From Crossaster papposus (taxonomy: Eukaryota > Echinodermata > Asteroidea > Velatida > Solasteridae), in contig JBAIAA010000657.1 of NCBI GenBank assembly GCA_037893245.1, positions 868,001 to 932,000 on the forward strand: a stretch of DNA of 64,000 bases, written 5' to 3'. Of the stretch, positions 726 through 55,776 are shown piece after piece; position 1 is the first letter of the stretch; each line of letters opens with the position of its first letter. Below the pieces are notes generated by a model. The model had not been told where the DNA came from. It made no database searches and saw only the letters and a program-made list of their open reading frames with translations. The position numbers were made by a program, and so were the translations under genes.

Positions 726-2257
726 AACGGGCTTGACACGACACTGGTTGCCTACTGTATTGTGACCAGTTTACCCGCAGACACTCCACCTCTAATACTT
801 CTGTTGGCAGCCTCTGATAAGCTGTAATTAGCACTGGCTGGCACAACTATGAAATGCTAGTTGTTGTTCGTGGGAGCCTCTACATGGAGGGCAATCACAT
901 CTTTGCCGCAAGCACCGAGAATGTTGATCGCTGGTGTTGGAGCTTCGTACACTTTACCACCGTCTGGATTACTACTCGGAGGTTTGACTGTTAATATAGT
1001 CACAGACATCTTTGTTGGATACAGTGTCGAGTTTGGCATCGGCCAGATCACTGATAGAGCAACGTACTGAGTGGTCACTGTCAGCACTGTCAACGTCAGC
1101 CTTTTCAAGGGTCAATTCTAAGAGTTTTGTCATTTAGGTTCATTGCACTTTCAGGCATTGTTGGACTCTGTCGCAGTTTCTTGGAGACTCTCCGAGTCTG
1201 TGTGGCGCAAAATGAGGTACAATCTGGGCTGTCCGTGCCATCTTCCAAATTAATCCTCCTCATCGATCGACTTAGACGTTCCTCCTTTGGAGAGTCCGGG
1301 GAGTCTCGTCCCACTTGTATGACTTGTTGTGTGTCTGTGACCGGCGACGGATGTGCGAGATTCCCCTTAGCGTTGGGCGTATTTTTACTGTGCTTGCTTA
1401 GAGAGGTTTTCTCTCGTCTGTCGTTACAGCATGTGCATTTGTGGCTGGCCCTGGGTCGAACTCGCAGACTTGTCCTCGTCGGTGACTGGTCGGTTTCAAG
1501 TCGACGTTTCAAAGACAGTGTGGCAGTTGGCGACCCGTCCACTGTTTCCCGCATTCCGGGCACTGATCCTGATCCAACCGACCATATAGTCACTCAGTCT
1601 CTTATGTCCGCCCACTCAACAATTTAATCGGACATAACCGGCAAAGACAATATCATGCTTAAAATCCATTTTAAGCCAAAACAAGTCAGGAGAGAGGGAG
1701 TGTCACTGAATGGGATAGTGCCATCTCATTTCTAAAATTCTAAAATCTGCAATTCCTCTTTCCGTGTCTTCTCCTTAATCCGATAAGTAAGAGCACTTAC
1801 ATCTACACCATCAATGGTGTCGAGAACTCTGGTAAAAACTTCACTTGTCTTTAGGATTTCCTGCCGGGTTCCCTGCCAGGCCATCCAGGGTCCGTTAGGA
1901 ATTTGTTAACAATGCCGAGTGCTCTGAGTATGGGCTGTAGTTTCCCCATCGCCATTATGTTAAAAACTGCATGGTGCAAGTTATTCCTCGGCTTCATGAC
2001 CTTAGTCTGGAACTCGTGTATGAGTCGTACATGTACAATAGCTCAGCATTAACGAAGTATATATTAAAACGGTTTCCCACCCACCTAGGATATAGTGAAT
2101 TGTTTTCCAATTACACTCATTACACTACCGATTCTTTTGTTGCGATGACTTCGATGGCAATTTGCCATCCAATGTATAGCCGGGGCGAGTGTCGTGATGA
2201 CAGTTTCTATTGCAGGGCCGACTTCATGTTCCGCCACGCCAATCCCCTGCAACAACA
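726..2257. other. No recognised gene; open stretches on both strands
   Basis: Overlapping open frames lie on both strands at about 1105-1627, the minus one Ser/Arg/Pro-rich with a CxCC pair. A further minus-strand stretch at about 1730-1880 reads sensibly (SEVFTRVLDTIDGVDVSALT), so a decayed minus-strand coding region is possible. I recognise no family and see no convincing splice pattern. Confidence 0.3.
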
Positions 2258-3060
2258 TTAATGCTTCTTGAAAGCGGGATGAATTCTTCCCAAGTTTTGT
2301 GGATCGCGAGTTGGTACTTTGTTGTTTTGTTGTTGAGTTGCTCTTCTGTGGTTAACAATTTGTTCTCCACATAATGTAGATCCTCGTGCTGTTTTTGAAC
2401 AATATGCCAACTGTATATGTACCAATGTTCTCAACATGTCGGTGCCCACTTTTGCAGCAGATTGTTCACTTTTATTTTTGGCACGGCACTTTCTGTTCGA
2501 GTTCTGTGTTTGCAGTGATTTCAGTTTTCCTGATTTGGTTTGCATGCGGGACGCACATGCTTGACCATTTTTTGCTACTTGATTCCACTTAATTGTTTCA
2601 CTATCTGCGCCACTTCGTAAGGGATCAATATTCAAGTATCGACAATGTAAAGCAACGAAATTTGCCCAAAAGGCAACACGAAAGGAATAAATCATTTTGT
2701 TAACGTTCCGAATCTGTGACTGCATGTGGTCGACGTGCACGAATTCGAAGCCGAAAACGAAGCTGGCGCTCAAACTCCGCAATAACCAAGGGAGTATAAA
2801 GCTCAAATAACACCGGATGCGCCGCCCAATCGCGAACAACAAACTCGGCAACAACTTGGCGGCTTTGTGTAACGCAATAGCTGCCGCCCAATCGCGAACA
2901 GCCAACAATTCGGCAACCGAGCAACGGGATACGATTTCGGGAAGGCTTCGGCCCGAACTCCGGCAAGAATAATGCAATAGTTTACGCAAAAAGGCCCACA
3001 CACAGTCGACATGCAATCGAAAAGCGACTGCACGTTTATCAGTAACGTCTGTTTCTCCTA
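2258..3060 (-). other. Unassigned minus-strand open frames, probably fortuitous
   Basis: A 252-residue minus-strand frame (2258-3016) overlaps two others in the same strand. The words GTTGTTCGCGATTGG or close variants recur (near 2828 and 2888, giving RDWAA in translation), so the open frames partly reflect an internal short repeat. There is no recognisable domain. Confidence 0.25.
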
Positions 3061-3104
3061 AATCTCACCACGGACGAATATGAGTTTTTTTGTTTTAAAT
3101 CTTA

Positions 3105-3265
3105 TACCCCGCCGCACCGACGCCGGCGGCACGTACGCACGGCGACGAGTCACCCGACCAAAAGCGCTGCGCCTTTCCAACATGGCGCCAACCACGCGCC
3201 AAGATGGCGCGGCCCTGTGTTCCAAGATGGCGGTGCCCAGGGACAAGATGGCGCATTTTTCATCT
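3105..3265 (+). promoter_or_regulatory. GC-rich island with four AAGATGGCG/ACATGGCG motifs
   Basis: Within about 75 bases the words CAACATGGCGCC (3179), CCAAGATGGCGC (3200), CCAAGATGGCGG (3221) and ACAAGATGGCGC (3244) occur in one orientation. CCAAGATGGCGGC is the classic YY1 core, known from promoters and from the 5' ends of some retroelements. The preceding segment is CpG-rich (GCCGGCGGCACG). I infer a promoter or regulatory island, either host or from a mobile element. No transcript start can be fixed. Confidence 0.4.
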
Positions 3266-3294
3266 TTTATAGTATAGATAGAAAATAGCCCACT

Positions 3295-3510
3295 GGGCAT
3301 TTTACCCGATATTACCCGGGTTGTAACAAGTAATAACGCTAGTTATTACTGGGTAACATACCGATATTACCTGGGCTGTAACGAGTAATAACGAGTGGTT
3401 ATTACTGGGTAATAACGGGGAAATAGTAGACAAATATTTCCCTGTTATTACCACCCGATATTACCACATTTACCCAATATTACCAGGGAGAATGTTACCG
3501 ATATTTCCGG
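3295..3510. repeat. Duplicated GATATTACC/GTAATAACG segment with palindromic cores
   Basis: Two diverged copies of a segment of about 60 bp, beginning GATATTACCCGGG (near 3308) and GATATTACCTGGG (near 3362), each contain a GTAATAACG...GTTATTAC inverted pair. Further GATATTACC and TATTACC words follow to 3510. It is a small repeat of unknown family. Confidence 0.6.
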
Positions 3511-3760
3511 CATTGCATTGTAGTATTTCAAGAGTAGCTTGGAGTTTGGGATGCTAGCTTGGCAATTAATTTTGTTTTCTTCTTTTAAATACTTCGCAAC
3601 TTAATATAAGGATTGGTAGAAAACTTACAAACAAAATTTCTTCATTCATTCACTTTTATGATTAACAATACTACTTAACAAGAATAAAACTAACTTTATT
3701 CAGCGCATTGCTGACTTACTAACAGAAGTTTAAAGCTGTTTTAATAATTCAATTGAACCT
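3511..3760. other. A/T-rich spacer, nothing recognised
   Basis: No frame, repeat or RNA gene is apparent in this stretch. Confidence 0.5.
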
Positions 3761-3901
3761 ACCCATATTGCACATATTTGGAGGACTGCTGGAATTTGCC
3801 AAAACTCGACCGGGGGTGCTTGGTCTAAAAAAATTAAAAAGAAAACATATCTTTGTGCATAGATTAACAAAGATTAAACTTTCAAAGTGAACAAAAAAAT
3901 T

Positions 3902-3974
3902 GGCAAGGCGGGACTTGAACCTGCGACCTCCAGAATACTGGACCGACACTCTACCAAACTGAGCTATCGACTTG
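3902..3974 (-). repeat. tRNA-like sequence, probably a tRNA-derived SINE head or tRNA pseudogene
   Basis: On the minus strand an A box (TAGCTCAGTTTGGTAGAG) and a B box (GGTTCAAGTCC) stand at tRNA spacing, with a TCCAG/CTGGA anticodon-arm hairpin between them. The acceptor arms do not pair and the T stem has a mismatch, so a working tRNA is unlikely. T-rich sequence follows to about 3760, which could be a SINE body. The two Pol III promoter boxes are what can be seen; the SINE reading is inference. Confidence 0.55.
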
Positions 3975-4159
3975 CTCGGTCTGGCAGTCTCCCAAGTTGT
4001 CATATCTTTGTTCGAGGGCGTTAGTCAGAAGTCATAAACACCAGAATTCGGGGTGGCCAGGGATCACATCTAATTTTATAATACAACCTGGGAAGCAACA
4101 TTGTGGGGATCACTCAATGAGAATATAACTTTTTTTCTTATAATACACTTGTTAAACAT

Positions 4160-4206
4160 TAAAATTTAACCCCCCCCCCAAAAAAAAAAAAAAAAAAAAA
4201 AAAAAA
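4160..4206. repeat. C9/A-run low-complexity tract
   Basis: A run of C directly followed by about 28 A. This is simple low-complexity sequence downstream of the last visible RNF212B-like exon. Confidence 0.8.
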
Positions 4207-4332
4207 CCTAAAACGAAAAATACCCATTTGGTTTACCCACACACACATTTCAAGATGTTTGTTTTTACAATTTGGCGCGATGTTTGAACACTGATGCTTT
4301 TTTGAATACTTGTTCCCCCTTCAAATCGATAC

Positions 4333-5971
4333 CTGTAGGCCTTAGCAGCCCCTCCTGGACCCGGTGATTCACTCAGCAATCGCCTCAGCATGCAATTCTC
4401 CTCTTGCAAATGAGGCATCTCCCTGGAATTTTTTTGAAAAAATGACAACATTTAATATTTATCCTACCAGAAGTATGCCAATATATTTAGCAAAACTTTT
4501 AGTATAAAAAAAAATACCATCAAATGTACTAGATTCAGGATCTGGGAATTTTTGCCTGTGCATTTTCTTATAATATTCACATTTTGGACTTTTATAGAAT
4601 TTTATAGAATGACGCCCATGTAAACAAATACACAATATGATCGTTACTGGTACCCTATAAAATCACAGCGCTTAATTCTGTATGCTTTTCTGCCCTGAAC
4701 CTCGCTGAATTCAACAGGGTCTCTTTGTACTGAGTCAAACAAAGTCAAACAACAAGTTGCTAATTGCTTGGTACCAAACCTGCCAAAACCTAGCAAAACC
4801 CGCAGTTGGCTAAAGGAACAAAACATCTAACCTTTCTAAAGCCATAGCTTTTTGTAGCTGTCGCATTGTAATTTCTCTTTGTGATTGCACCTTTGCATCC
4901 TAGAAATCAACCATTTTATGTAAAAAATATTGAAAGTTAAACTTCATTCATATATCTGTAAACATGCATTTGTATAAATATATTTCAGATTTTCACTGTA
5001 GAAAGGGTAGTAAATGAAACGCCTTTCTTTATTACTTACCTGTTCCTTCTTATGAGCTTCTAATCGCTGCCTATGATTCTTCTGAAATTCGATCACCTTT
5101 GAAAACAAATACAAAATGAAAATCATTTTTTGTTGGTCAGATCCAAATTATTTTATCAGCATTCCGATACTGCAAAATATATCGTTTTTTATTTTAGGGC
5201 AGAGAAGGGAGGAGGGGAGGGGAGGGGAGGGGGGGGGGGGTATACCTGTTGTAACTGCCTGTGATGTTTCTTGACAATTTCACAAGGATCTTCAAAGAAA
5301 ACCTCAACCTCTGGCTTCATCTGAATTTATTCAATAACAACAAAAAATAGTACATGTACTTTATTTTACATTAATTTCTCAATGATGTTAATTGTTATCA
5401 TTAAAGTCAACCAAATTAATAGGAATTTATCCTGCCTGTGAGGTGCAAGTAATTTGAAAGAAACAAGTTTCAATCAAATAACGTCCTTCTCAAATTGAAA
5501 CAAATGATTATTCTTTGTTATTCAATATAAAGTATTTAAATGTTAACAGCATTTTTTTTAAAGTTTTGTTTTTAGAATTTTGCCATGATTCTAATGTTCA
5601 GAAAACATTCAGATGTAAAACAAGTTTCAATTATTTAAAAAAAACACATTGTTTTACAGTATACCTTGGATGATAACTTTATCGTGGAACATGGAGCTCC
5701 ACAGATAGGGCACTGGTTTTTGGTTCCTGTAAAATGAACACAATTGAAAGCTACAATTCTGTGCTAGGAAAAAATCAGTAATATCAGTAAAAAAAATCAG
5801 TTTATAATTGAAATAGAAGAAATCTAACAATCTGTCGAAAAATTTATAAATTTTATTATTACCCTCTTTAACACAGTCATTACAGTAGATGTGTCCGCAG
5901 CTTGTAAGGTAGAAGGTGTACTCACTGCCCGGCTTACGAAAGCATTGGTTACAGTGTACCCATTCTGCCAT
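4333..5971 (-). CDS. RNF212B: RNF212B-like RING-finger protein, six 5' exons (3' end not seen)
   Basis: Likely a meiotic E3 ligase of the RNF212/Zip3 group, which in animals stabilises recombination intermediates on synapsed chromosomes. Exons on the minus strand with GT/AG junctions in consistent phase: 5863-5971, 5665-5726, 5246-5320, 5040-5096, 4832-4899 and 4333-4422. The start is ATG at 5971 (MAEWVHCNQCFRKPG); an upstream in-frame extension starts only at TTG and is not used. The RING is split between exons 1 and 2: CNQC, then SCGHIYCNDC, then CPICGAPC. Exon 3 carries MKPEVEVFFEDP, the typical segment after the RING in RNF212B. Exons 4-6 are Gln/Glu/Lys-rich (QKNHRQRLEAHKKEQ) and suit the family's coiled coil. 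The exon ending at 4333 has an in-phase donor, so at least one 3' exon is missing from view. The Ser-rich tail is not found. Assignment rests on recalled similarity to RNF212B rather than RNF212. Confidence 0.82.
5197..5245 (+). repeat. G-rich tract inside an intron, touching a splice donor
   Basis: GGGAGGAGGGG repeats ending in a run of about 14 G lie in the intron after exon 3 of the RNF212B-like gene. In the transcript this is a C-rich tract that starts four bases after the donor GT at 5244-5245. It has clear quadruplex or i-motif potential. Confidence 0.8.
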
Positions 5972-6672
5972 CGTCAACCCTTGGCCTTGGCCTTTAGTAG
6001 TAGACTCCAAAAGAGAATTATAATAACAGGGGAGTAAACAAAGTGGTTATATAAACTTGATTGTTGGGCCTTCTAATTATATTAGGTTCCCTAAAAAATC
6101 AAGACGCTACTGGCAAAGAGCGGGGTTTAAAATTAGAAATCTCCCCTTAAATGTTAAACAGAATTTCATGATTTGGTGTCCCCCCAAACAAATTAACAAT
6201 TCCCTTAACTTTTGAAACTGGAAAGAAAATATTTTCTAAGTTAAGTTTTCATGTTAATTTATTTTCCCATATCCCTTTATTTAATAATTTTTAACAACCA
6301 GGTTATTCATAAATCATAGAGCCCTTAGGCCCTGATATTTCAACCTTTTTAGTAAGGATTAGTACTGACAGTAACATCCACCCTCCCCGGCCCCCCAGCC
6401 AAAATGTTTAAATATCCAAAATGGTCTGCCAAAAAGTTAAATGTTAAATGTGCCAATGCCGGTTAAGATTTTAAAATTGTTTTGTTGAAGAAAAACATTT
6501 TTAACAAACAACCATTTGCTTATGAAGTATTCATATTACCCTGACAAAAGTTGACAACGTCTTCTTAAATAAAATGCTGACGGCGAAACAAATCCTTTGA
6601 TGCAAAATTTAGACTTTTCACCGCTGAATGACAGAATGCACTGGCCTTCATTGGTTGCAAGTTTCTTCCTAC
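5972..6672. other. Upstream region of the RNF212B-like gene
   Basis: A/T-rich sequence between the ATG at 5971 and the left end of the next mobile element. It presumably holds the 5' UTR and promoter. I see no TATA box or repeat that I can defend. Confidence 0.4.
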
Positions 6673-7237
6673 TAGTAGGCCAGCCAAAGTGTGAAAATAC
6701 ACTTTGGACGGCATTGTTTGTTAATGGCCGGCATCCATGCTAGATCTATTGTTCATGGGATCAGGAAGATGATTAGGGTGGATGCCACGCTTGATTTTGA
6801 ATTTTAAGGTCATTTTGAGGTCAAAAGGTCAAATAAGGTCAAAAATCAGTATTTTCAAAATTTGTGCAAATTTTAACCGCAATTGATAGATCTACCCATA
6901 AAAGTTATTGTTAACTTCATGTTGATACACCAAACCTACGAAATTAACGGATAAACTTTGATCTTGTACACAAATATATAGCAAAATGAAACTTAAAAGG
7001 GTGATTTCTCAAAAAGTGCATATCTTAAGAATAACGAAGTTGTTTGCTCTCCCTATCTCAATGGTGCATATATTTGTTTCAAACAACTTTTTTTTCCAAG
7101 GTAAAGGTACCCAGGCAGTTTTTGATATAACAACAAATTCCATACCACATCTTCATATAATGTTAGGATGTAATAAAACAAGTAAATTTGAACGAAGTAA
7201 ATTTAAACGTGTAGTGGTTTTATAGTTTGACATGGCA
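6673..7237 (+). repeat. Left terminal inverted repeat of the PIN/CXC element
   Basis: About 565 bp matching the reverse complement of the right arm, with TGACCT-type words (AAGGTCATTTTGAGGTCA) in the middle. A small perfect hairpin, CCAAAGTGT/ACACTTTGG, lies at 6683-6706 and has no counterpart in the right arm. Confidence 0.85.
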
Positions 7238-7353
7238 CTTTGACAATTATTTCGTTGTGGCAGGGTGCATCACTTTTTTCTTTGTACATCAGAATAATTA
7301 TGTGCCCACCTAAGCTTGCTCACAATAACAGAATGGAAAATTAGTTTACGAGT

Positions 7354-8904
7354 CTATTGGCCAGCTGGGTTGTTGCAGTCAGTTGCGTCACATCCGCAGG
7401 CATAAGTGCATCTTAGGTTCTTTTTGAAGCAAGTGCATCGGGATGTCCTGCACTTTGATTTGCATCCACAGGAAACTAGCTCAAGACATGCATCTGGGAT
7501 AGGGGGTAGTCTTGTCCAGACAGCTTCCAGGTAACCTGACTCGTTCTTCCAAGCTGCTGTGTCTAGAGGAGATGGGACATCTATGTGTTCCTGGTCTGCC
7601 TGAAACCAAATCTTTGCCTGGTAGTTGGCGCGTACTGTGTGAAGTTCCAGTGCATCTCTTGTTGGCGGTAACATTTCCAGACCCTTCTTCGCCTTACTAA
7701 AGAGTTGGAGTCTGGCATGGTTGATGGTTGGCTGCTCAGGTGCACCGTATAGGTGACATACAAACTGCTCAATGGGGGCAAGTTCTCCATCACAACCAAT
7801 TCCCTTGACGAGTAGTGGTTGCTTCTCAAAGATTTTCCAGCACATTTTCTTCCCATGGCCATGGAAGGAGGAGGTTGTATCACATCCTGTAAGGGCATGA
7901 AAGCTGAGCAGGTTATCCCTCACAGGTTGTGCGAGTCTCTCAGATACTGCATGTATTGGATAACATTTGCGCTTCTTTGCCGTTCCAGAGATCATCCAAA
8001 CTTCTGTTGCTTTTGAAGATAAAAAGTGCACCAGAAGTAGCATCACGTCTGTATCCCTGCAGATGACCACCACTCTTTGATATCCTTCATTGACTACCTC
8101 ACATGCATGGAGTATCAACCTGGTGTCAGCCTCTTCATGGTTTCCTCGAAGTTTTACATCATCTCTCCTCGTGGACCTGGCATCTGTAACATCAAGGAAC
8201 CCACCGCCTGTTACTATCTCGTATCTTTGCAGTAGATCCTTGCCCTTCTGTACGATGGCGTTTGACAAGAACTTGGCGAGATCAGCTTTGTTCTCATCCA
8301 AGGCAATGAATTGGCCCCAAACCTGTGGGAGTGGGACCTGGGATCCATCGATGAGCTTTCGAATTAGCTTTTTTTTTCCCATTCGCTTTGATCGAGTTAC
8401 TGCCTTGATGGAGCTCTCTCCAATGTAGCGATCAAATACCACGTCAACTCTTGTTGTATTCTCTCCAAAGTGTTGTGTCACACTATTTATGAAAACACCA
8501 GCGTAATCACCAAAAGTTTGACACCCATGAGGCTTTCCAAGAGCTTGGATAAGTGCATGACCATCTATCTATCAGCACACATGTCTTCATGTTGGCATTC
8601 GGTTTATTTGTGGGCGTGGTAAGCCCAGCCATTAAGATGTGGATCAGATCTGCCTTTGCTGTTGAATTCATCTCCCCTCCAGCCTTGGCGAGAGACAGTG
8701 GGACGGGAGACAGCTCATGCTGGAGAATATTCACCATTTCCAATGGTCGACCTCCAGTGGCAGCATTGAGCAATCGTTGCAGTAACTTTCTGTCGGCTTT
8801 GATAATCTTCTGTACATTTTGTTTGGTGGAAACATTTGCTTTGTATAGATCAGCAAAAGTTTTGGAGCGATGTTTCTTCAGGGCGTCAGGATAATACTTC
8901 ACAC
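7354..8904 (-). CDS. PIN (FEN1/XPG-like) nuclease-fold protein with C-terminal Tesmin/CXC domain, frameshifted copy
   Basis: A long terminal exon on the minus strand, starting after an AG acceptor at 8905-8906 and ending at a stop at 7354. Motifs in order: LIDG (an Asp near 8570), VVFDRYIGESSIK, then EADTRLILHA, VICRDTDVMLLL, and ALTGCDTTSSFHGHGKK. The order and spacing mirror FEN1/XPG nucleases, whose active site uses an N-terminal Asp, an EAEA-type cluster, a DxD and a GSDY...GIG helix-two-turn-helix. The candidate acidic residues are present. The C-terminal 35 residues hold a CXC-type cysteine array (CGCKSKC...CTC...CTYACGCDATDC), a DNA-binding fold known from Tesmin/TSO1. A four-base GATA duplication near 8563-8574 shifts the frame inside the first catalytic motif, so this copy is probably inactive. 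Similar proteins are common as uncharacterised genes in invertebrates and fish. The biochemical role is inferred. Confidence 0.75.
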
Positions 8905-9183
8905 CTGTATATTAAAACAAAAACAATCAACACATTTGTTGCACCTTGAAAGCCTTTGGTGGAAAAATGCTCATTTACAAAACTGTGGGAAACTATAGAA
9001 ACAAAACAATAGTTATTGCGTTTCAAAGAAAACTTAGTTATACCTTTCCTAATTATATAATACAGCTCTATGCTTAAAATAATACAGAAGAAAGGCCTCT
9101 AGCCATCACCATGGATGATCCTTCATGAACCAACACAGCTAAATAAAATCCACAACCTAAACATGTTCTAATGCATAATAATG

Positions 9184-9222
9184 AGCTATACCAAAAGCTA
9201 TACCAAAAGCTATACCAAAAGC
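9184..9222. repeat. 12-bp microsatellite AGCTATACCAAA x3
   Basis: Three perfect head-to-tail copies of a 12-mer plus three bases, inside the mobile element's presumed intron. Confidence 0.9.
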
Positions 9223-9992
9223 AAGTACACTTGCCTAGCTTGCCCATCATACCCCATGCTCTGGAGATAATCAGTCTACACACCTACATCTAATCTTGGA
9301 ACATAAACAACCCACCTTGGCTTATACACAGGCTGGTGATGGTGACGTGATTGCATTGCAATTATGATTCACCGAGCGCAGTTTACACACACTCAGCATA
9401 CAACGCACTATTGATAAAATTGATAGTAGAACATAATTATAATGGGATTGATAAGGGAACTATGCAGTCAACTATACTCAGCTTTGAGCTCAGTATTCTA
9501 AACATCTATAAAAGGTAATAAGGAATTTGCCCTGTGAATTAAGAATTTTCTTAAGGTTGTCAAAACAATCATGAGATTTGGAGAAAGGATGATTTAACCA
9601 GCACGGAGGACTTCTTTCTTCGTGAATGTACAAGAAACTCAGGATCATTTCAAACAATTGTAAATAACAATATTTTATAAGGCATAGCTCACAAACAGTG
9701 ATTTACAATTAATCTGCAATCAATATTCAGACTTTACAAAAGAAAAATGAAAAAGACAAGCCAACATATCATGAGTGTTTGGAAAATATACAATGGTACA
9801 ATATTAATCAACAATGACAAATCATTGCTACTGTGCAATCAATGATGCAATAGTTCATAAATTCCTAAATTAAAGCAAGGACTAGATGTTTTACACCATA
9901 CAGTCTACACGTGTGTCCATAATTACTATACATGTATAATTAAAATGTAATTAAAATTAAAACAACTTGAGATAAAAAGAAAGTCTACTCAC

Positions 9993-10101
9993 TCTAACAG
10001 ATGATGTGATTCATCAAAGAAACTGAGGGTTGATGGCTTCAGATTTAGCCATACACACTTGTCAGCAAGAGCAGGTCCAGTATGTCTGATCAACAGAATG
10101 G
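9993..10101 (-). CDS. Candidate upstream exon of the PIN/CXC gene
   Basis: On the minus strand a 109-bp open stretch lies between TACTTACAG and GTGAGT splice signals. It reads ILLIRHTGPALADKCVWLNL and onward without a stop. It lies inside the TIR element, upstream of the main exon. Its end phase does not join directly to the main exon's reading phase, so either another small exon lies between, the junction is elsewhere, or the call is wrong. Confidence 0.35.
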
Positions 10102-10209
10102 CTGTAAGTACAGTATGGCATGCAATGGGGCCCTAGATGTCTGTGCTAATCAGACACCCAAAGGTCACTGATCTTGGCAGTTGCTAGGCAACAGAAGTAC
10201 TTAGGGTGT

Positions 10210-10249
10210 CCATGGAGGAATAAGAAGGAACCTTCTTATTCCTCCATGG
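10210..10249. repeat. Perfect 19-bp palindrome with 2-base loop
   Basis: The arms, CCATGGAGGAATAAGAAGG and its exact reverse complement, are separated by AA. GGTGTC words lie just before and after. It sits inside the TIR element and is not part of the terminal arms. Confidence 0.95.
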
Positions 10250-10562
10250 GGTGTCCATCTTATGTGAAAGAAGTGGCCTTGGAGTGCCTGGTCTGCTCTG
10301 GAGCATGTCTGGAGCTAGCTTTGAAACTTGGTAATCCACATTATGTTACACATGTAGCTTTTAAAGGCTGTAATTTATCACTGCACGATACCCCTATCGT
10401 GTAGGAACCTGGTATAACATATGAAAAAGCCAAATTTTACAAATGTTCAACATTTTAACTCATTGCAAGTTTGTTGACTGTGTTGGAGTCTGAACAATGT
10501 TTTACATGGAACGATTGGGAGTACAAACAATTTTGATATCAGACATACAGTTTTTGAGCAAC

Positions 10563-11140
10563 TTGTCAAACTATAAACCCACTACGCGTTTAAATATACT
10601 GCGTGAATAACATAACTTCTTGTTTCATTACGCCATTATGGTGTATTATAAAATGTGTGTTATAATTTTTTTTTTATTAAAAACTGCCTGGGTATATTTA
10701 CCTTCCAACAAAAAGTTGTTTGAAACAATTATATGCACTATTGGGATAGGGAGTGCAAACAACTTCGATATACTTAAGATATGCACTTTTTGAGAAAATC
10801 ACACTTTTAAGTTTCATTTTGCTATACATTTGTGTACAAGATAAAAGATTAACTTTTAATTTCACAGCTTTTATATGTCGATATGATGATAAAAATAAAT
10901 TGTATTGATAGATCTACAACTTGGGGTCAAGTTTGGTGCAAAATCCAAAAATACAAATGTTGACCTTATTTGACCTTTTTGACCTCGAAATGACCCTAAA
11001 ATTCAAAATCAAGCGTGGCATCCACCCTAATCGTCTTCCTGATCCCATGAACAATAGATCTAGCATGGATGCCGACTATTAACAAACAATGCCGTGGAAA
11101 CTTTTTTTAGAGGACTTTTTCAAGTTTGGCTGGTCTACTA
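10563..11140 (-). repeat. Right terminal inverted repeat of the PIN/CXC element
   Basis: Reverse complement of the left arm over nearly its full length, ending GGCTGGTCTACTA at 11140. It contains a TTGACCTTATTTGACC segment matching the left arm. Confidence 0.85.
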
Positions 11141-11424
11141 TACGCAATCATTGTCAGGTCACGGAAAAACTCGCGAATTTTGCTTGTCAGTCGAGATTTC
11201 GTAGTTTCACGTTAGTTGTCTACTGAGCGAAGGCTGGGAACCGTACTATGAGGCGCCGTTCATGTCATTGTAGACCTGAGTGAACTTGGCCGCGTATTCG
11301 GCCTGATATTCCAGCCGCGTATTCCAGCCGCGTATTCAGCCGCGTATTCAAGTATACGGAGGCTAATAAAGGACACGTTGTTTTTAATATATCTATTGTG
11401 GGTTTTAGCGAAAATTTTACTTAT
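11141..11424. repeat. Spacer with a short CAGCCGCGTATTC tandem repeat
   Basis: About four copies of a 13-14 bp unit (CCAGCCGCGTATT) lie at 11298-11351. The rest of the spacer holds no frame or known element. Confidence 0.65.
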
Positions 11425-14400
11425 AATGCAAGTTTCTACAATTACCGGTGGGGGTCAATAACGGAGGACTAGATGCTGGCTACAAATTATTTTGGTTTCA
11501 GAAAATGAATCACGTGATACTCGTACTGGAAATATAATATTGCGCATGAGTTCAACAAAATAATAGCATTTTGCGTTTTTTCAATCTAAGCCCTACTTTG
11601 AGACAAAGTGTACCGAGCACTACAGGAGATGCAGTGAATTTGTCTACGGCATCTGAAAGAGAGATGCCATGCCTACATTCTATTTTGGTTTCAGATCCGT
11701 GAAGGTGTTAGATCACGTGACCAAGAGTCATTAAAAAATGAATATTTTTGAAAAAATGTGTCGATTTGACTATTAAAATGCCGATTTAAATTTAAAGTGT
11801 ACCTAAAAATGCAAGTTGATAGAATTCTCGTTGGATATCAATAATGGAGGACTGTATGCTGGCTACAAATTATTTTGGTTTCAGATCTAGAACAACAATA
11901 AATCACGTGATACTCGTGGAAATTGCCGTTCAACCAAATAATAGCATTTTGCGGGTTTTTTTCAATCTAAGCCCTACTTTGAGACAAAGTGTACCGAGCA
12001 CTACAGGAGATGCAGTGAATTTGTCTACGGCATCTGAAAGAGAGATGCCATGCCTACATTCTATTTTGGTTTCAGATCCGTGAAGGTGTTAGATCACGTG
12101 ACCAAGAGTCATTAAAAAATGAATATTTTTGAAAAAATGTGTCGATTTGACTATTAAAATGCCGATTTAAATTTAAAGTGTACCTAAAAATGCAAGTTGA
12201 TAGAATTCTCGTTGGATATCAATAATGGAGGACTGTATGCTGGCTACAAATTATTTTGGTTTCAGATCTAGAACAACAATAAATCACGTGATACTCGTGG
12301 AAATTGCCGTTCAACCAAATAATAGCATTTTGCGGTTTTTTTTAATCTAAGCCCTACTTTGAGACAAAGTGTACCGAGCACTACAGGAGATGCAGTGAAT
12401 TTGTCGACGGCATCTGAAAGAGTGATGCCATGCCTACATTCTATTTTGGTTTCAGATCCGTGAAGTTGTTAGATCACGTGACCAAGAGCCATTGAAAAAT
12501 GAATTTTTTTGAAAAATGTGTCGATTTGACTATTAAAATGCCGATTTAAATTTAAAGTGTACCTAAAATGCAAGTTGATAGAATTCTCGTTGGATATCAA
12601 TAATGGAGGACTGCATGCTGGCTACAAATTATTTTGGTTTCAGATCTAGAACAACAATAAATCACGTGATACTCGTGGAAATTGCCGTTCAACAAAATAA
12701 TAGCATTTTGCGGTTTTTTTCAATCTAAGCCCTACTTTGAGACAAAGTGTACCGAGCACTACAGGAGATGCAGTGAATTTGTCGACGGCATCTGAAAGAG
12801 AGATGCCATGCCTACATTCTATTTTGGTTTCAGATCCGTGAAGTTGTTAGATCACGTGACCAAGAGTCATTAAAAAATGAATATTTTTGAAAAAATGTGT
12901 CGATTTGACTATTAAAATGCCGATTTAAATTTAAAGTGTACCTAAAATGCAAGTTGATAGAATTCTCGTTGGATATCAATAATGGAGGACTGTATGCTGG
13001 CTACAAATTATTTTGGTTTCAGATCTAGAACAACAATAAATCACGTGATACTCGTGGAAATTGCCGTTCAACCAAAATAATAGCATTTTGCGTTTTTTTT
13101 CAATCTAAGCCCTACTTTGAGACAAAGTGTACCGAGCACTACAGGAGATGCAGTGAATTTGTCGAAGGCATCTGAAAGAGAGATGCCATGCCTAGATTCT
13201 ATTTTGGTTACAGATCCGTGAAGTTGTTAGATCACGTGACCAAGAGCCACTGAAAAATGAATATTTTTGAAAAAATGTGTCGATTTGACTATTAAAATGC
13301 CGATTTAAATTTAAAGTGTACCTAAAATGCAAGTTGATAGAATTCTCGTTGGATATCAATAATGGAGGACTGTATGCTGGCTACAAATTATTTTGGTTTC
13401 AGATCTAGAACAATAAATCACGTGATACCCGTGGAAATTGCCGTTCAACAAAATAATAGCATTTGTGGTTTTTCAATCTAAGCCCTACTTTGAGACAAAG
13501 TGTACCGAGCACTACAGGAGATGCAGTGAATTTGTCTACGGCATCTGAAAGAGAGATGCCATGCCTACATTCTATTTTGGTTTCAGATCCGTGAAGGTGT
13601 TAGATCACGTGACCAAGAGTCATTAAAAAATGAATATTTTTGAAAAAATGTGTCGATTTGACTATTAAAATGCCGATTTAAATTTAAAGTGTACCTAAAA
13701 TGCAAGTTGATAGAATTCTCGTTGGATATCAATAATGGAGGACTGTATGCTGGCTACAAATTATTTTGGTTTCAGATCTAGAACAACAATAAATCACGTG
13801 ATACCCGTGGAAATTGCCGTTCAACAAAATAATAGCATTTTGCGTTTTTTCAATCTAAGCCCTACTTTGAGACAAAGTGTACCGAGCACTACAGGAGATG
13901 CAGTGAATTTGTCGACGGCATCTGAAAGAGAGATGCCATGCCTACATTCTATTTTGGTTTCAGATCCGTGAAGTTGTTAGATCACGTGACCAATAGCTAT
14001 TGAAAAATGAATTGTTTTTAGGAAATATGTGTCGATTTGACTATTAATTAATGCGGATTTAAATTTAAAGTGTACCTAAAATGCAAGTTGATAGAATTCT
14101 CGTTGGATATCAATAATGGAGGACTGTATGCTGGCTACACATTATTTTGGTTTCAGATCTAGAACAACAATAAATCACGTGATACTCGTGGAAATTGCCG
14201 TTCAACAAAATAATAGCATTTTGCGGGTTTTTTTCAATCTAAGCCCTACTTTGAGACAAAGTGTACCGAGCACTACAGGAGATGCAGTGAATTTGTCGAC
14301 GGCATCTGAAAGAGAGATGCCATGCCTACATTCTATTTTGGTTTCAGATCCGTGAAGTTGTTAGATCACGTGACCAAGAGTCATTAACAAATAAATATTT

Positions 14401-14895
14401 TTTGAAAAATGTGTCGATTTGACTATTAAAATGCCGATTTAAATTTAAAGTGTACCTAAAATGCAAGTTGATAAAATTCTCGTTGGATATCAATAATGGA
14501 GGACTGTATTCTGGCTACAAATTATTTTGGTTTCAGATCTAGAACAACAATAAATCACGTGATACTCGTGGAAATTGCCGTTCAACAAAAATAATAATAG
14601 CATTTTGCGTTTTTTTCAATCTAAGCCCTACTTTGAGACAAAGTGTACCGAGCATGCCCTACAGGAGATGCAGTGAATTTGTCGACGGCATCTGAAAGAG
14701 AGATGCCATGCCTACATTCTATTTTGGTTTCAGATCCGTGAAGTTGTTAGATCAAGTGACCAAGAGCCATTGAAAAATGATTTTTTAAGGGAAAAAGTGT
14801 CGATTTCACTATTAATTAATGCGGATTTAAATTTAAATTGTACCTAAAATGCAAGTTGATAGAATTCTCGTTGGATATCAATAATGGAGGATATT
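11425..14895. repeat. 380-bp satellite array, nine units
   Basis: The start word AATGGAGGACTGTATGCTGG recurs at ATG positions 11844, 12225, 12603, 12982, 13362, 13735, 14116 and 14496. A diverged first unit lies near 11463, and a tenth unit begins at 14884 and is cut short by the next array. Periods run 373-388 bp. Each unit is an old dimer: ATGCTGGCTACAAATTATTTTGG and ATGCCATGCCTACATTCTATTTTGG-type halves, each followed by TTTGGTTTCAGATC and then a CACGTG palindrome. Units are very similar, so the array has been homogenised. The 78-79 residue frames in some units are a by-product. Confidence 0.95.
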
Positions 14896-14900
14896 AGTTA

Positions 14901-16214
14901 CGAGCCAACTCGTACGCGAGCCAACTCGTACGCGAGCCAACTCGTACGCGAGCCAACTCGTACGCGAGCCAACTCGTACGCGAGCCAACTCGTACGCGAG
15001 CCAACTCGTACGCGAGCCAACTCGTACGCGAGCCAACTCGTACGCGAGCCAACTCGTACGCGAGCCAACTCGTACGCGAGCCAACTCGTACGCGAGCCAA
15101 CTCGTACGCGAGCCAACTCGTACGCGAGCCAACTCGTACGCGAGCCAACTCGTACGCGAGCCAACTCGTACGCGAGCCAACTCGTACGCGAGCCAACTCG
15201 TACGCGAGCCAACTCGTACGCGAGCCAACTCGTACGCGAGCCAACTCGTACGCGAGCCAACTCGTACGCGAGCCAACTCGTACGCGAGCCAACTCGTACG
15301 CGAGCCAACTCGTACGCGAGCCAACTCGTACGCGAGCCAACTCGTACGCGAGCCAACTCGTACGCGAGCCAACTCGTACGCGAGCCAACTCGTACGCGAG
15401 CCAACTCGTACGCGAGCCAACTCGTACGCGAGCCAACTCGTACGCGAGCCAACTCGTACGCGAGCCAACTCGTACGCGAGCCAACTCGTACGCGAGCCAA
15501 CTCGTACGCGAGCCAACTCGTACGCGAGCCAACTCGTACGCGAGCCAACTCGTACGCGAGCCAACTCGTACGCGAGCCAACTCGTACGCGAGCCAACTCG
15601 TACGCGAGCCAACTCGTACGCGAGCCAACTCGTACGCGAGCCAACTCGTACGCGGCCAACTCGTACGCCGGCCAACTCGTACGCCGGCCAACTCGTACGC
15701 CGGCCAACTCGTACGCGGACCAACTCGTACGCGGACCAACTCGTACGCGGACCAACTCGTACGCGGACCAACTCGTACGCGGACCAACTCGTACGCGGAC
15801 CAACTCGTACGCGGACCAACTCGTACGGGGACCAACTCGTACGGGGACCAACTCGTACGCGGACCAACTCGTACGCGGGCCAACTCGTACGCGGGCCAAC
15901 TCGTACGCGGGCCAACTCGTACGCGGGCCAACTCGTACGCGGGCCAACTCGTACGCGGGCCAACTCGTACGCGGGCCAACTCGTACGCGGGCCAACTCGT
16001 ACGCGGGCCAACTCGTACGCGGGCCAACTCGTACGCGGGCCAACTCGTACGCGGGCCAACACGTACGCGGGCCAACACGTACGCGGGCCAACACGTACGC
16101 GGGCCAACACGTACGCGGGCCAACTCGTACGCGGGCCAACACGTACGCGGGCCAACACGTACGCGGGCCAACTCGTACGCGGGCCAACTCGTACGCGAGC
16201 CAACTCGTACGCGT
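14901..16214. repeat. 16-bp CpG-rich minisatellite, about 82 copies
   Basis: The unit CGAGCCAACTCGTACG is repeated without interruption. Variants lie in layers: GCGAGCC to about 15650, then GCCGGCC, then GCGGACC to about 15870, then GCGGGCC with a cluster of AACACG forms near 16060-16165, and one GAGCC copy at the end. Sixteen is not a multiple of three and the unit gives no stops in the frames used, so frames above 400 residues exist on both strands. They are artefacts. Each unit contains the palindrome CGTACG and several CpGs. Confidence 0.97.
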
Positions 16215-32421: not shown

Positions 32422-32505
32422 GTGAAAAAACTGTGATGAACCAACTACGAATTAATACTCCTCAGTAATTTCCAGCGGTCATCACGCAGACCATCAATCA
32501 TCGCC

Positions 32506-34620
32506 ATGGCAGATGCTCTTCTGAGTCAGACTGATCCCGATTCCCCCGACCCCGAAATCCGACACCAGGAGCCAGGCACGGAGGACTTGCATGTACATGG
32601 TCGACCGCAGAGGGAAAGACACCCTACTGCGAAAGCCCTGTACAACAACATAATGACAATTGAAAGAAGCTTGCATCATCAGTGGAGGAAAACATCTCAA
32701 AACCTAGAGAACCTTAGTGACGCCCCCGATGAACAGGCTGTCATTCTTCACCACCTTTCTAGCGCCCGTTCCACACTGCAATCATATACCGAGATGTGGT
32801 CTAAGCTGGACAAGCTCTACGGAGAAGACCACACTGGTGAATTCAAAGATTGCGCATACCATACAAAGATGAACTTTCTTGAGAAAGCTAACTACGCAAA
32901 TAACATTATTTCCCAAGGAACGGAGAGATTGTACCAATTAGCCCTCGAGACTCGCTCTAGTCTTTCTAGCCCCAGTACTTCTCAAAGATCCCAAAAGTCA
33001 ACATCGTCATCAGTCCATAGTGCCAAGGTACAGGCGCTCGCAGCTGCCGCGGCTGCCGCCCAAAATGCCGCATTCGAAGAGGTGATAGCCAAACGCACAG
33101 CCGACATGAAAGTTTCACAAATGACTAGTGAAGCCGAACGGAAGATCGATCAGACAAGACGAGAAGTCGAACAGCAAACAAAATTAGCAACAGCTGAGGC
33201 AGACCTGCAAATTCTCCGAGCACATCAAGCGGCAGCTATAGAAAAGGCACGATTTGACGCCCTCCAGCAAGCTGATCAAGAAGACACAACAAGGGACCCC
33301 GCGACATCCCCCCATCAGTCTTCGAATGACCACGCCCTACGGTTTCTGAATCGTTCCGACAAAGTGGTTGATGCTACTCCGACCTCCCAGCTCCGAGCCT
33401 TAGCCACACCCTTTCAGCCATCAGCAGAACAGACAGCGATCCCGCTGCCGACGCCTAGTGGTGCTTTACTGACTACGCCGGAGCCCCCCCTGTCTGTAAA
33501 ACCGACCCCGCCGTCGACATCCAGTGACGCCTTATCGACCACGCTGAACCCCCCTCTCCTGCCTGCGACACCAATCGACGGAGCGAATCCTCTGCTCGAC
33601 CTCACTCGAGAGATATCCGACACCCTCGCTCGTCAACGCCAGCCTACCCACGAGCCTGATTTATATGACGGGGAACCCATTATGTTTCAACCATGGCGCT
33701 GCGCATTCGAGACCATGGTCAACCACGCCCACACACCAGCCACGCAGAAACTAACCTTTCTCGCCAAATATACCAAAGGGGAGGTGAGGAAACTGGTAGA
33801 TAGATTTCGACATCGCTATGTTTCTAGCCCCGAGATCGCCTATCGAGAAGCGTGGAAGGAGCTGGAAGAGAGGTTTGGAAACAAGACCAGCATCACCACC
33901 GCAATAATCCAAAAGCTCACTAGTTTCCCCAAATTGAGGCCAGAGGAAAACCGCAAGCTCCAAGAGCTGGCCGATCTATGTATAGACGCGGCCGCCCAGA
34001 TGAATGACCTGCCAGACCTAAACATTCTCAACTATGCACATAACCTGCACCCCATCCTCGAGAAGTTGCCCACATTCATCCACAACGCCTGGCGAAAGCG
34101 CGCCTCGGAGCACAAAACGACAAATGGTACTTACCCTCCATTCACCGTGCTGGCCGAATTTTTGAAGCAAAAGGCTAGGCTCCACAACGACCCTGAGCTT
34201 TACCCATCGAGCAAGATCCAACCAGACCAGAACCGTCTCCATCCATCTCCTGAGAAATCAAGCACAGACGGGAGCCACGAATCCTCACTTCGTGTTCTGG
34301 CGACTTCGACACCCTCGAAATCGACACCTGCGCCGCAATTCCGAGCCAAAGAGAAGTGCCTATTTCACGACGTGGAAGGCCACCACCTGTCCGAATGTAT
34401 TGCTTTCAGCAGAACGTCTATTCAGGAGAGGCGGCAGTTCTGCAAAGACAGAGGCCTGTGCTTTAAGTGCGGTGCCAACCACCGGATAAAAGACTGCGAA
34501 ACAAAAGTGCAGTGCAAGAAATGCAGAAGTACCGAACATGCGTCCTTCATGCACATCTCCCAGAGACCGAACGACGGGGAGGCCCAGAATGAGAAACCCC
34601 CAGCAGATAGCCGCGAGGAC
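32506..34620 (+). other. BEL gag region
   Basis: A long gag-type region. The first part is Ala/Gln/Glu-rich and helical. The middle carries the BEL-type capsid-associated domain (around FQPWRCAFETMVNH, about 33.67-33.98 kb). It ends in CCHC-like zinc knuckles (CFKCGANHRIKDC, CKKC, about 34.46-34.53 kb). A Pro/Ser/Thr-rich linker of about 150 residues lies between the helical part and the capsid-like domain. It belongs to the BEL fossil. Confidence 0.9.
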
Positions 34621-34639
34621 GTAGATGCTAACACAAAGT

Positions 34640-35200
34640 GCACCCGGTACTTGACTTGTTCCTCGGCACGATCTTGCTCCAAGATCGTTCTCTGCAAAAT
34701 ATACCACAAGGATCGTCCTTTAAACTCCATCCTGGGCTATGCGGTGCTGGACGACCAGTCTAATGCCTGCTTGGGGGGCCCAGAAGTATTCAAGGCTCTT
34801 GACATTGCAGGCCCAGCTTTTCCATACGAACTTTCTACCTGCGGAGGAGACAAAATCACAGTTGAAGGAAGACGAGCGTGTGGTTTGATTGTTGAAGCAC
34901 AAGACGGGCAAACCGAACAGCTGCCTACGGTTATCGAGAACGCCTATATCCCCGGCGACAGGAGCGAGATTCCAAGCCCTGGTCTCTGCGAAGGCTTTCT
35001 CCACCTCAGACCAATTGCTGAAAAGATACCAGAGGTGAGAGAAGACACCAACATCATCCTTCTCATCGGAAGAAATTGCCCCGAGCTGCTGAAAGTGAGA
35101 GAGTCACGTAACGGTCCAAGAGGAACACCATGGGCACAACGTACAGACCTAGGCTGGACTGTCTCTGGCCAAGTTTGCATGAGTGGCGCACAAGGGAAAG
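34640..35200 (+). other. BEL protease region
   Basis: Retropepsin-like domain of the type found in BEL/Pao elements, with an AVLDDQSNACLG active-site-like segment near 34.74 kb and DLGWTVSGQV near 35.15 kb. It follows the zinc knuckles, as is usual in the family. Confidence 0.8.
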
Positions 35201-35689
35201 TACACGCCTCCATCAAACGCACCATCCTTCAACCACAACCTGATGGCCCAGATATCTGCGAGAATCACATCTATGTGAAAGAGATGTTCTCATTAGCCCG
35301 CCAGAACAAGACAACGACGGATATATGCATAGAAACTCCGGAGGACAACTTGAAGGCCCTGTCGATCGAAGATCAGCACTTTCTCAACATCTTAACAGAA
35401 GGTGCCCACACCAACTCACGAGGAAACCTAGAGTTTCCTCTACCCTTCAAGGAACAGCAGCCAATCCTGCCCAACAACCGTCCTCAGGCCCAAAGCAGAC
35501 TGGACAGCCTTCTAAAGAATTTACGTCGTAAACCAAGGATGATGTCAGACTATACGTAGCCTTTTTTGACAAGATCCTAACTAGGAACCACGCCAACCGA
35601 GTCCCTGAGAAGGAGCTGTCCGCCCCACCCGGAGCGGTATGGTACCTTCCACACTTTGCCGTACATCATCCCAAAAAGACAGGAATCAG

Positions 35690-38600
35690 AGTGGTGTTCG
35701 ATGCTAGTGCGGAGTTTAAAGGCATCTCCCTCAACAAAGCACTCCTTCAAGGACCAGACTTGATGAATAGCCTGTTGGGGATCCTCCTGCGATTTAGGCT
35801 AGGCAAGGTTGCGGTGATGGGGGATGTGGAGCAGATGTTCCACAACTTCTATGTCAACCCGGAACATCGTGACTATCTGCGCTTCTTGTGGTTTGATGAC
35901 AACGACCCCACAAAACCGGCCGTAGAATACAGGATGAATGTACATCTCTTCGGCAGTATCGCATCGCCTGCAGTAGCAACATTTGGCCTTAGAATGGTTG
36001 CCGATGAGTGCGAATCTACTCATGGAGCTGACGTGAGGCAATTCATCCACCACGATTTCTATGTAGATGATGGGCTTACCTCTCAACCAGACGCGAACAC
36101 CGCCATAAACCTGGTCCAGCGCAGTAGAGACGCCCTCGCCACCAATAACTTACGCTTCCACAAGATCGCCTCCAATAGCAAGGAAGTCATGAACGCCTTC
36201 CCCCAAGAAGAAAGATCCAAGGACCTGAAGTGCATAGACCTCTGCCAAGACGAGCTACCTACCCAAAGATCGCTTGGAGTGTATTGGTCCCTCGAGCGAG
36301 ACACTTTTACATTCCAAGTCGACCTGCAAGACAAACCTTTCTCACGACGGGGAGTACTTTCAGTAGCAAGCTCCATTTACGACCCATTAGGTCTAGCAGC
36401 ACCAGTCACCATCGAAGGGAAGTTCATCCTGCGCGAGCTTATGACAACCTTAAAAAAGGAGCAAAACTCGCCTCAGGATCTCTGGGATCGACCGCTCCCT
36501 GAGAGTTGTCTTCCAAGATGGACCCGCTGGCGCAACTCTCTACGCAACCTACAAGACATCCATGTTCAGCGCTGTTATCAGCCTACTGACTTTGGCCAAG
36601 TCAACAGAAGAGAAATTCATGTCTTCTCCGACGCCAGCGATCGAGCAATAGGAGCGGTCGCCTACCTAAGGCTTGTCAATGAGAACAACCAGCCACATGT
36701 GTCCTTTCTTCTAGCAAAGGCGAAAGTCACACCTACCACGGTTTCCATACCACGACTGGAACTGTGTGGTGCGGTGCTAGCAACTACGCTGGTGCAGGCT
36801 GTTGAGCCAGAGATCGGAGGGCGAGCAACTATCGACAGTATTACATACTACACCGATAGCAACGTAGTCCTAGGCTACATTTCCAACCGATCTAGGCGTT
36901 TCCATGTGTACGTGGCAAACAGAGTGCACAAAATACACAAAGTGTCAACACCAAGCCAGTGGCATCACGTGGGGACGGATGAAAATCCCGCGGACCTCGC
37001 ATCACGCTCAGTCCCCGCCCACCAACTCGGCACCTCAATCTGGTTTAGAGGGCCAGACTTTCTCTGGCAACAAAACATCTCATCGATGGACACCGAGACA
37101 TTGGCTAGTCAAGCAATTCCACTCGACGACGACGACCCCGAAATACGGAAGGAAACTCGTGTCAGCCACACGAATGTCCCTCGCCAACCCAAAGGCCCGG
37201 CCACCCTGAGCAGTGGGCAACAGCTAGGTTGTGATAGGTTTTCACGCTTTTCTACCTGGACATCCCTAAGAAGTGCGGTTGCAACCCTGATAGTCGCAGC
37301 AAAAACCTTCAAGTCGAAAGCAAAAGGGACGAGTAACGACAACCACGAAGTCGACAAACCTCGCAGACATATATCAGTCGAAGAGCTCCACAAAGCCGAT
37401 TGTGTGATCTTCCACGCCGTACAGAACAAGTACTTTGGCGAGGAACTAGCCAGCCTCAACCCTGATAATGATCTGGAGCAAGCTTCGAGCAACACCATAA
37501 ATAAGAGAAGCCCCTTGTACCAACTAAGCCCGTTCATCGACGACGACGGTCTCATCAGAGTCGGAGGTAGACTGCGAAGAGCCGACCTCGATCTGGGAGG
37601 ACGTCATCAGATCCTCCTTCCAAAGAACAGCCATATTTCAGAACTAATGGTGAAACACTTCCATCAAGAGGTCAAACACCAAGGACGACATTTCTCCTTT
37701 GCCGCTATACGGGCGGGAGGCATCTGGATCGTCGGTGCCCACGACCTCGTCAGGAGTGTCATCAACCAGTGCATCATCTGCAGGAAGCTAAGAGGCAAGT
37801 TTCTCACTCAGGTTATGGCCGACCTACCACAAGACCGGCTCGAACCAACGCCCCCCTTTACCAACGTCGGGACGGATGTGTTCGGACCGTGGACTATCGT
37901 GACAAGAAAAACTAGAGGGGGCTCAGCAGATTCCAAACGATGGGCCGTAATCTTTACCTGCCTTTGCACAAGAGCCGTCCACATCGAGGTTATCGACGCC
38001 ATGGACACCTCGGCCTTTATATCTGCACTTAGAAGATTCGTCGCAGTTCGTGGACCGATCGCAAAGATCAGATGCGACAGAGGCACAAACTTCGTAGGTG
38101 CCAAAGGTGAGCTAAACCACGAACAAGTTGGGCGATACTTAACTACCCAGAGTTGTGAGTGGGTCTTCAACCCCCCACATGCCTCACATTTCGGTGGAGT
38201 TTGGGAGCGGCCGATAGGAATCATCCGACGTGTCCTAGAATCGATGTTCGCCCAACTAGGAAAACATCAGCTAACCCACGACGTACTGGTGACTTTTATG
38301 GCCGAAGCATGCGCAATTGTCAACTCGCGACCTATCACTACCATCTCTTCCGATGCCAACGACCCACAGGCACTCACTCCTGCCATGCTACTGACCCTGA
38401 AGACTCGACAACTTCAGGCACCACCGGGTGACTTCGTCAAAGAAGATCTCTATGCAAGACAACACTGGCGTCGTGCCCAGTATCTTGCAGATCAATTCTG
38501 GCTTCGATGGCAAAGAGAGTACCTCCAGAGCTTGCAGTGCAGACAAAATTAAGTGGAATGACACACGGCCCAATATCCGTGAAGGAGATGTAGTTCTGGT

Positions 38601-55000: not shown

Positions 55001-55776
55001 TTGGGAGTGTTTCTAAGTCCATTTCGTGATCTGACGCTGAATAGTGTCGAAAAGTGTTTGTTAGGCTTAATGGGCGCTATAGCACATTTGGGAGTGTTTG
55101 TAAGTCCGTTTCGTGATCTGAGGGTCAATAGTGCCGAAAAGTGTTTTTTAGGCTTAATGGGCGCTATAGCACATTCGGGAGTGTTTGTAAGTCCATATCG
55201 TGATCTGACGGTGAATAGTGCCGAAAAGTGTTTGTTAGGCTTAATGGGCGCTATAGACCATTTGGGAGTGTTGGAAGTTCATTTCGCGTTCTGAAGGTGA
55301 AAAAAACCAAAAAGTGTTTTTTAGCCTCAATTAGCGCTCTAGCACATTCGGGAGTGTTTGTAAGTCCATATCGTGATCTGACGGTGAATAGTGCCGAAAA
55401 GTGTTTGTTAGGCTTAATGGGCGCTATAGACCATTTGGGAGTGTTGGAAGTTCATTTCGCGTTCTGAAGGTGAAAAAAACCGAAAAGTGTTTTTTAGCCT
55501 CAATTAGCGCTCTAGACCATTTGGGAGTGTTTGTAAGTCCATTTCGTGATCTGACGGTGAATAGTGTCGAAAAGTGTTTGTTAGTCTTAATGGGCGCTAT
55601 AGCACATTTGGGAGTGTTTGTAAGTCCGTTTCGTGATCTGAGGGTCAATAGTGCCGAAAAGTGTTTGTTAGGCTTAATGGGCGCTATAGCACATTCGGGA
55701 GTGTTTGTAAGTCCATTTCGTGATCTGACGGTTATTAGTGCCGAAAAGTGTTTGTTAGGCTTAATGGGCGCTATAG
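52048..55776 (+). repeat. 87-bp satellite, block 2, with higher-order pattern
   Basis: Opposite orientation to block 1. At least five unit types recur in order: AATTGGCGCTATAGACC (A), TTAGCGCTCTAGACC with a GTGTCG end (B), CACATTTGGGAG with CCGTTTCGTGATCTGAGG (C), CACATTCGGG with CCATTTCGTG (D), CACATTCGGG with CCATATCGTG (E), giving about 520-bp higher-order units A-A-B-C-D-E. Type B-E units are exactly 87 bp and stop-free in one frame, which gives 29-residue repeats (GAIAHSGVFVSPFRDL). Confidence 0.95.

Follow-up and report, generated by a model that had tools for sequence, protein, structure and literature searches.

The 64,000-bp stretch of contig C657 (JBAIAA010000657.1) of Crossaster papposus that we analyzed, referred to here as the window, harbors a 4,468-bp transposon copy at positions 6673-11140. 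We consider it very probable that this copy is non-autonomous and internally deleted and that it belongs to a young DNA transposon present in many copies, of the Academ kind (AcademX type). That likely filing rests on the length of the target site duplication (TSD) and on the nuclease as these have been described, not on sequence comparison. An earlier note, made from the letters of the window alone, had proposed that the element, with one spliced nuclease gene on the minus strand, could represent an undescribed class or a cargo gene on a MITE-like vehicle. The gene of the element is not spliced, its nuclease does not stand alone, and a new element class is unneeded to explain the element.

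We fetched 20 copies from the genome for comparison, including the window's own (L009). The longest copy found, L016, had the same termini and measured 7701 bp; it contained a single intronless open frame of 1601 codons. Its layout comprised imperfect terminal inverted repeats (TIRs) of 0.56-0.58 kb, a long 5' region and the single unspliced frame of 1,601 residues. Segments rich in Cys and His can be recognized by eye close to the N end of the predicted protein; these are followed by a large centre resembling a transposase, the FEN1-like nuclease and finally the CXC-like tail. All 19 of the other fetched copies, that of the window included, aligned to L016 with one or more internal gaps, and these fell into six main deletion kinds. 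In the alignment to L016, deletion 783/3292 was seen in 7 copies, of which one had another gap as well, deletions 801/4114 and 1265/3890 in 4 copies each, deletion 2209/5490 in 2 copies (the window and L013), deletion 1544/4646 in 1 copy, and deletion 884/4268 in 1 copy that was further rearranged.

Missing from the window copy are ~3.28 kb of the L016 element (element positions 2210-5489), which take in the first ~1,090 codons; the deletion junction lies at 8888-8889. What is left of the coding region is an open frame of 404 aa on the minus strand (7354-8568), which corresponds to residues 1198-1601 of the 1601-aa frame and is identical to L016 at 400 of 404 positions. It carries the series IDG, EADTR, RDTDV and GCDTTSSFHGHGK, followed by the CXC-like tail; the FEN1-like motifs are IDGHA (8554-8568), VVFD (8431-8442), HEEADTR (8119-8139), RDTDV (8044-8058) and GCDTT (7873-7887), and the cysteine tail includes CGCKSKC (7450-7470), all on the minus strand. 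An upstream coding part in another frame (8507-8911, minus strand) keeps codons from ~1092 of the long frame onward. The window frame is broken near 8560, where the nuclease part begins, and is also cut by the deletion at ~8888. A spliced gene was ruled out, as the coding region is uninterrupted in L016 and the edge of the supposed intron is the deletion junction; because the window copy has its internal deletion there, the "intron" is the join of the 5' region to codon ~1092. The nuclease, for its part, forms the C-terminal part of the 1601-aa protein in L016. As for the statement that there is no known transposase, it is true of the window copy, with the qualification that ~1,090 N-terminal codons are deleted there.

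Damage to the nuclease frame was common to more than one copy. A stop between DDVKL and GNHEEAD is common to four copies (L012, L023, L024 and L026), and the frame break of the window copy is also found in L013. Such damaged copies have multiplied, presumably by using protein from elsewhere, so that a moving copy need not make the nuclease part. Selection that keeps the nuclease in short copies was considered and is unsupported, given that copies with a common stop or frame break multiplied. The element is real and recently active and most likely belongs to a kind already described; the window copy is a non-autonomous remnant of it.

Ends, copy number and insertion sites

The element ends in TAGTAG termini, as the earlier note had described and as L016 also does, and its full ends read TAGTAGGCCAGCC...GGCTGGTCTACTA. 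The left TIR (6673-7232, plus strand) starts with TAGTAGGCCAGCC and lies past the 3' end of the gene, while the right TIR (10564-11140, minus strand) ends with GGCTGGTCTACTA. The arms, of 560 bp and 577 bp, are imperfect, with a complementarity of 80-90% by block and of 83% over 540 bp. The trinucleotide TAC stands directly outside both of them (6670-6672 and 11141-11143) and is the TSD of the window copy. The 5' region of the element (8889-10563, minus strand), which in L016 comes before the long frame begins, maps to L016 element positions 1-892 and 883-2209.

We searched the genome (1.02 Gb) with each arm, scoring 40 of 164 candidates for the left arm and 40 of 149 for the right, so that the resulting counts are lower bounds. 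The left arm was 99-100% identical in at least 40 genome places and the right arm 98-100% identical in at least 40, a recurrence of long inverted arms beyond chance. Arm identity at this level suggests a recent spread of the element. With two mismatches allowed, the 30-base left end was found in 60 places and the 31-base right end in 49, and the control patterns for the two ends had no match in the genome. The ends formed 44 left-right pairs at distances of 2.6-15 kb, 38 of them of 4.2-5.5 kb. The nuclease-CXC region lay at most 4 kb inside the left end in 41 of the 44 paired copies, confirming that an element with TIRs carries it; this pairing used 49 nuclease places from 90 match rows, after second pieces and distant relatives had been dropped.

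An exact 3-bp TSD was present in 17 of 18 copies. The sample comprised 18 of the 20 fetched copies, with L023 and L025 excluded because their right end was off the cut position; as a control, mismatched left and right flanks agreed in 17 of 306 pairs. When the flanks of L016 were joined, they matched across the junction at 96-99% identity in 40 of 40 scored places (the best 40 of 1243 candidates). L016 lies within one member of a repeat family, and other members are unoccupied. Together, these duplications and empty sites show that insertion takes place by a staggered join of 3 bp.

Two irregular arrangements of ends were also observed. On contig C1104, at ~120.9-203.5 kb, seven left ends on the same strand lie within 83 kb with no right end found there, forming a cluster of one-ended copies. 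On contig C113, three tandem right arms with a spacing of 2303 bp (1683415-1688597) come after one left arm at 1679734, in a multimer-like copy.

Predicted domains of the long protein

When the genome was searched with residues 1-480 of the long frame and 89 of 440 candidates were scored, at least 98 match rows were obtained, with identities from 100% to 26%. Related long frames are common in this genome. By manual count, related open frames of 1320-1666 aa occur at 21 or more places, L016 among them, one with a stop inside the match. The nuclease half gave at least 90 match rows (best 86 of 2392 candidates), and its coding part turned up again, at 26-54% identity, in further long frames of the same genome. 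For the central region we aligned L016 with paralogs from plus-strand frames only, leaving out loci with the frame on the other strand. The central acids invariant in L016 and seven relatives include D507, D510, D682, E691, E915, D936 and E940. The Pfam family DUF6589 matched 4 of the 8 alignment members (best E 9.1e-9), a set that includes near-identical pairs; L051 was over the cut-off (31.9 versus 27 bits) and L048 was under it. Nothing informative came out when the N-terminal parts and L016 as a whole were scanned against Pfam, and a literature search for DUF6589 found no paper.

In the nuclease part, eight acids are invariant in L016 and five relatives and are candidate catalytic residues (D1199, D1243, E1342, E1343, D1345, D1369, D1371 and D1427). 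Nine C-terminal cysteines are invariant in the same proteins. A strict acidic-motif pattern, written after the sequences had been seen, matched 3 of the 6 members, 16 of 18 FEN1 proteins and 0 of 20,000 shuffles. The FEN1 proteins were archaeal and came from 18 of 53 loci; L088 and L106 were trimmed to exclude a stop at their very end, L099, with an internal stop, was dropped, and L064 matches FEN-1 in the PDB. The sole stretch in the profile alignment with FEN1 set GCD..GHGKK against GTD..GIGPKK, which is the expected pairing.

In AcademX elements the nuclease is of XPG type. In the element studied here, the XPG family of Pfam had no match in the nuclease part, and scans of the nuclease against Pfam, PHROGs and NCBIfam led to no identification; one match to NYN in Pfam was sub-threshold, at E 0.07-0.1. 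A search of the genome for XPG_I found 13 places, none at transposon places among the matches listed. The Pfam profile TCR/CXC matched 6 of 6 members weakly (best E 0.019), with L016 at 13.6 bits and below the cut-off of 23.5. A literature search combining flap endonuclease, transposase domain and XPG found no paper.

Other features of the window

A palindrome with an 18-bp stem and a 4-base loop lies within the element at 10210-10249 (z -5.5). It accounts for ~35 bp that are extra with respect to the 7701-bp copy, and the extra part is common to L013. The palindrome may be a small mobile repeat. Its motif, TTATTCCTCCATGG, is also present in the flank of copy L015.

Next to the element, ~8.8 copies of a 380-bp unit (11550-14891) are followed directly by ~82 copies of the 16-bp unit CGAGCCAACTCGTACG (14901-16213), and this second array is open in several frames. 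Two long overlapping frames of 1039 and 1006 aa lie on the plus strand at 32440-38552; to the eye they resemble the gag/protease and the RT/RNase H/integrase parts of an LTR retrotransposon of BEL/Pao type. What appears to be a large repeat array occupies 51965-62932 and holds ten frames similar to one another (FVSPFRDLTVNSAEKCLLGLMGAIAHSG...), nine on the plus strand and one on the minus.

Alternative readings, proposed mechanism and known systems

Several results weigh against reading the window element as a deletion copy of an Academ-kind transposon with a DDE transposase and a FEN1-like nuclease. The Academ name was set by the description of the superfamily. Three of the 44 paired copies had no nuclease among the matches listed (best 86 of 2392 candidates), and copy L011 lacked a duplication. 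Unoccupied sites, which the earlier note had named as support for its proposal, were found elsewhere in the genome for L016, but the joined flanks of L022 gave none in a genome search, and those of the window matched contig C154 at only 81%, with bases 1-223 spread over 264 and thus ~40 extra bases inside. A DDE transposase in the complete copies, which that note had named as evidence against its own proposal, is partly borne out: L016 adds ~1,100 residues and some relatives match DUF6589, but in Pfam DUF6589 had no match in L016, L031, L034 or L045, and the invariant central acids are only candidates for a DDE triad. No significant match came from profile searches against the PDB (best E 0.11 and 0.13). 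The label FEN1-like holds for the order and spacing of the acidic motifs but not for the profile, since the hhalign comparison of the nuclease with the 18 archaeal FEN1 proteins was not significant (P 0.33). Similarly, the cysteine tail is present, but its description as a Tesmin-type CXC tail meets a Pfam TCR match below the cut-off.

We weighed three other explanations. If the FEN1-like nuclease with its CXC tail were itself the mobility enzyme of a new class, with no DDE transposase, this would suit a window copy that holds the nuclease part only, the nuclease kept in 41 of the 44 paired copies, and a DDE site that in the long copy is a candidate only. We regard it as very improbable, because in the long copy the nuclease shares a single frame with ~1,100 further residues, which are conserved in paralogs, and because copies with a broken nuclease have multiplied, whether through the stop in L012, L023, L024 and L026 or the frame break in the window copy and L013. 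Nor is an undescribed class called for when a 3- or 4-bp TSD and a nuclease are already given for AcademX in the available text of PMC10045372. Capture of a host gene as cargo on a MITE-like vehicle, to which we assign next to no probability, would agree with the long TIRs and with the non-autonomous look of the fetched copies other than L016. It was rejected on the long frame of L016, of which the coding part is an integral piece, and on the presence of that part inside the same arms in 41 of the 44 paired copies; the recurrence of the coding part at 26-54% identity in other long frames also argues against it. A separate, undescribed lineage outside Academ, in which a transposase of DUF6589 type and a FEN1-like nuclease with a CXC-like tail form one protein, appears improbable, if less so than the other two. 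Most parts have weak family matches and the likeness to Academ was judged from descriptions, which speak for such a lineage, whereas TSD length and the presence of a nuclease fit the description of AcademX in the accessible portion of PMC10045372.

On the reading of the element as an Academ-kind transposon, the full-length protein would act in trans and would bind the TIRs, perhaps through its Cys-rich parts. The centre of the protein would be a DDE-type enzyme in which an RNase-H-type active site makes the strand cuts and joins the strands, and the FEN1-like nuclease may help to cut or trim the second strand, a flap or a branched intermediate. Transfer would be by cut-and-paste. Deletion copies such as that of the window may have arisen from interrupted gap repair and then spread with the protein of intact copies; internal deletions whose breakpoints vary are compatible with gap repair that is interrupted once the element has been excised, a route established for other DNA transposons. 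We also put forward, tentatively and as a rather doubtful proposal, that one protein combines two nucleases of unrelated folds: the RNase-H-type centre would cut and join the transferred strand, the FEN1-like domain would cut or trim the other strand at a flap and so set the 3-bp TSD, and the CXC-like tail would steer the nuclease to the element ends. If this were true, the protein would be a eukaryotic analogue of the division of labour between TnsA and TnsB.

On the reading that we favor, the supposed new class would become a plain example of an Academ-type burst that was recent and took place in one genome, documented by a full-length copy that is naturally open, numerous deletion copies, 3-bp duplications and sites left unoccupied. 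The main interest lies in the role of the fused nuclease in transposition. If a fused flap-type nuclease is needed, the family would offer a direct test of the difference in TSD length between nuclease-bearing and helicase-bearing lineages.

With FEN1/XPG proteins the nuclease shares the order and rough spacing of the acidic motifs (D, FD, ExD/E, DxD, GxD); it differs from them in having no significant profile match and no XPG Pfam match, and in that 3 of the 6 members fail the strict pattern. In the part of PMC10045372 available, Academ TSDs are given as 9-10 bp for AcademH and 3 or 4 bp for AcademX, apparently tied to the encoded helicase or nuclease. The window element resembles AcademX in its 3-bp TSD (17 of 18 copies) and in an element-encoded nuclease, here predicted from a FEN1-like motif series; TIRs are expected in AcademX, and here they are imperfect arms of 0.56-0.58 kb. 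That part of the source does not mention, for AcademX proteins, a CXC tail or a fusion in one frame like the one here. AcademH would belong to the same superfamily if the Academ filing is correct, but differs in its 9-10 bp TSD and its helicase, where the TSD here is 3 bp and no helicase was among the Pfam matches of L016. Academ elements are long, at a mean of 5565 bp for curated bivalve elements in the available text of PMC10294476, compared with 7.7 kb here. The Kolobok lineages with accessory nucleases (KolobokE, KolobokD and KolobokP), as presented in the accessible part of PMC9587614, are alike in that a DDD/E element also encodes a nuclease; they differ in the nuclease types, and KolobokP has long terminal direct repeats. 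The Kolobok comparison shows only that pairings of a transposase with a nuclease recur.

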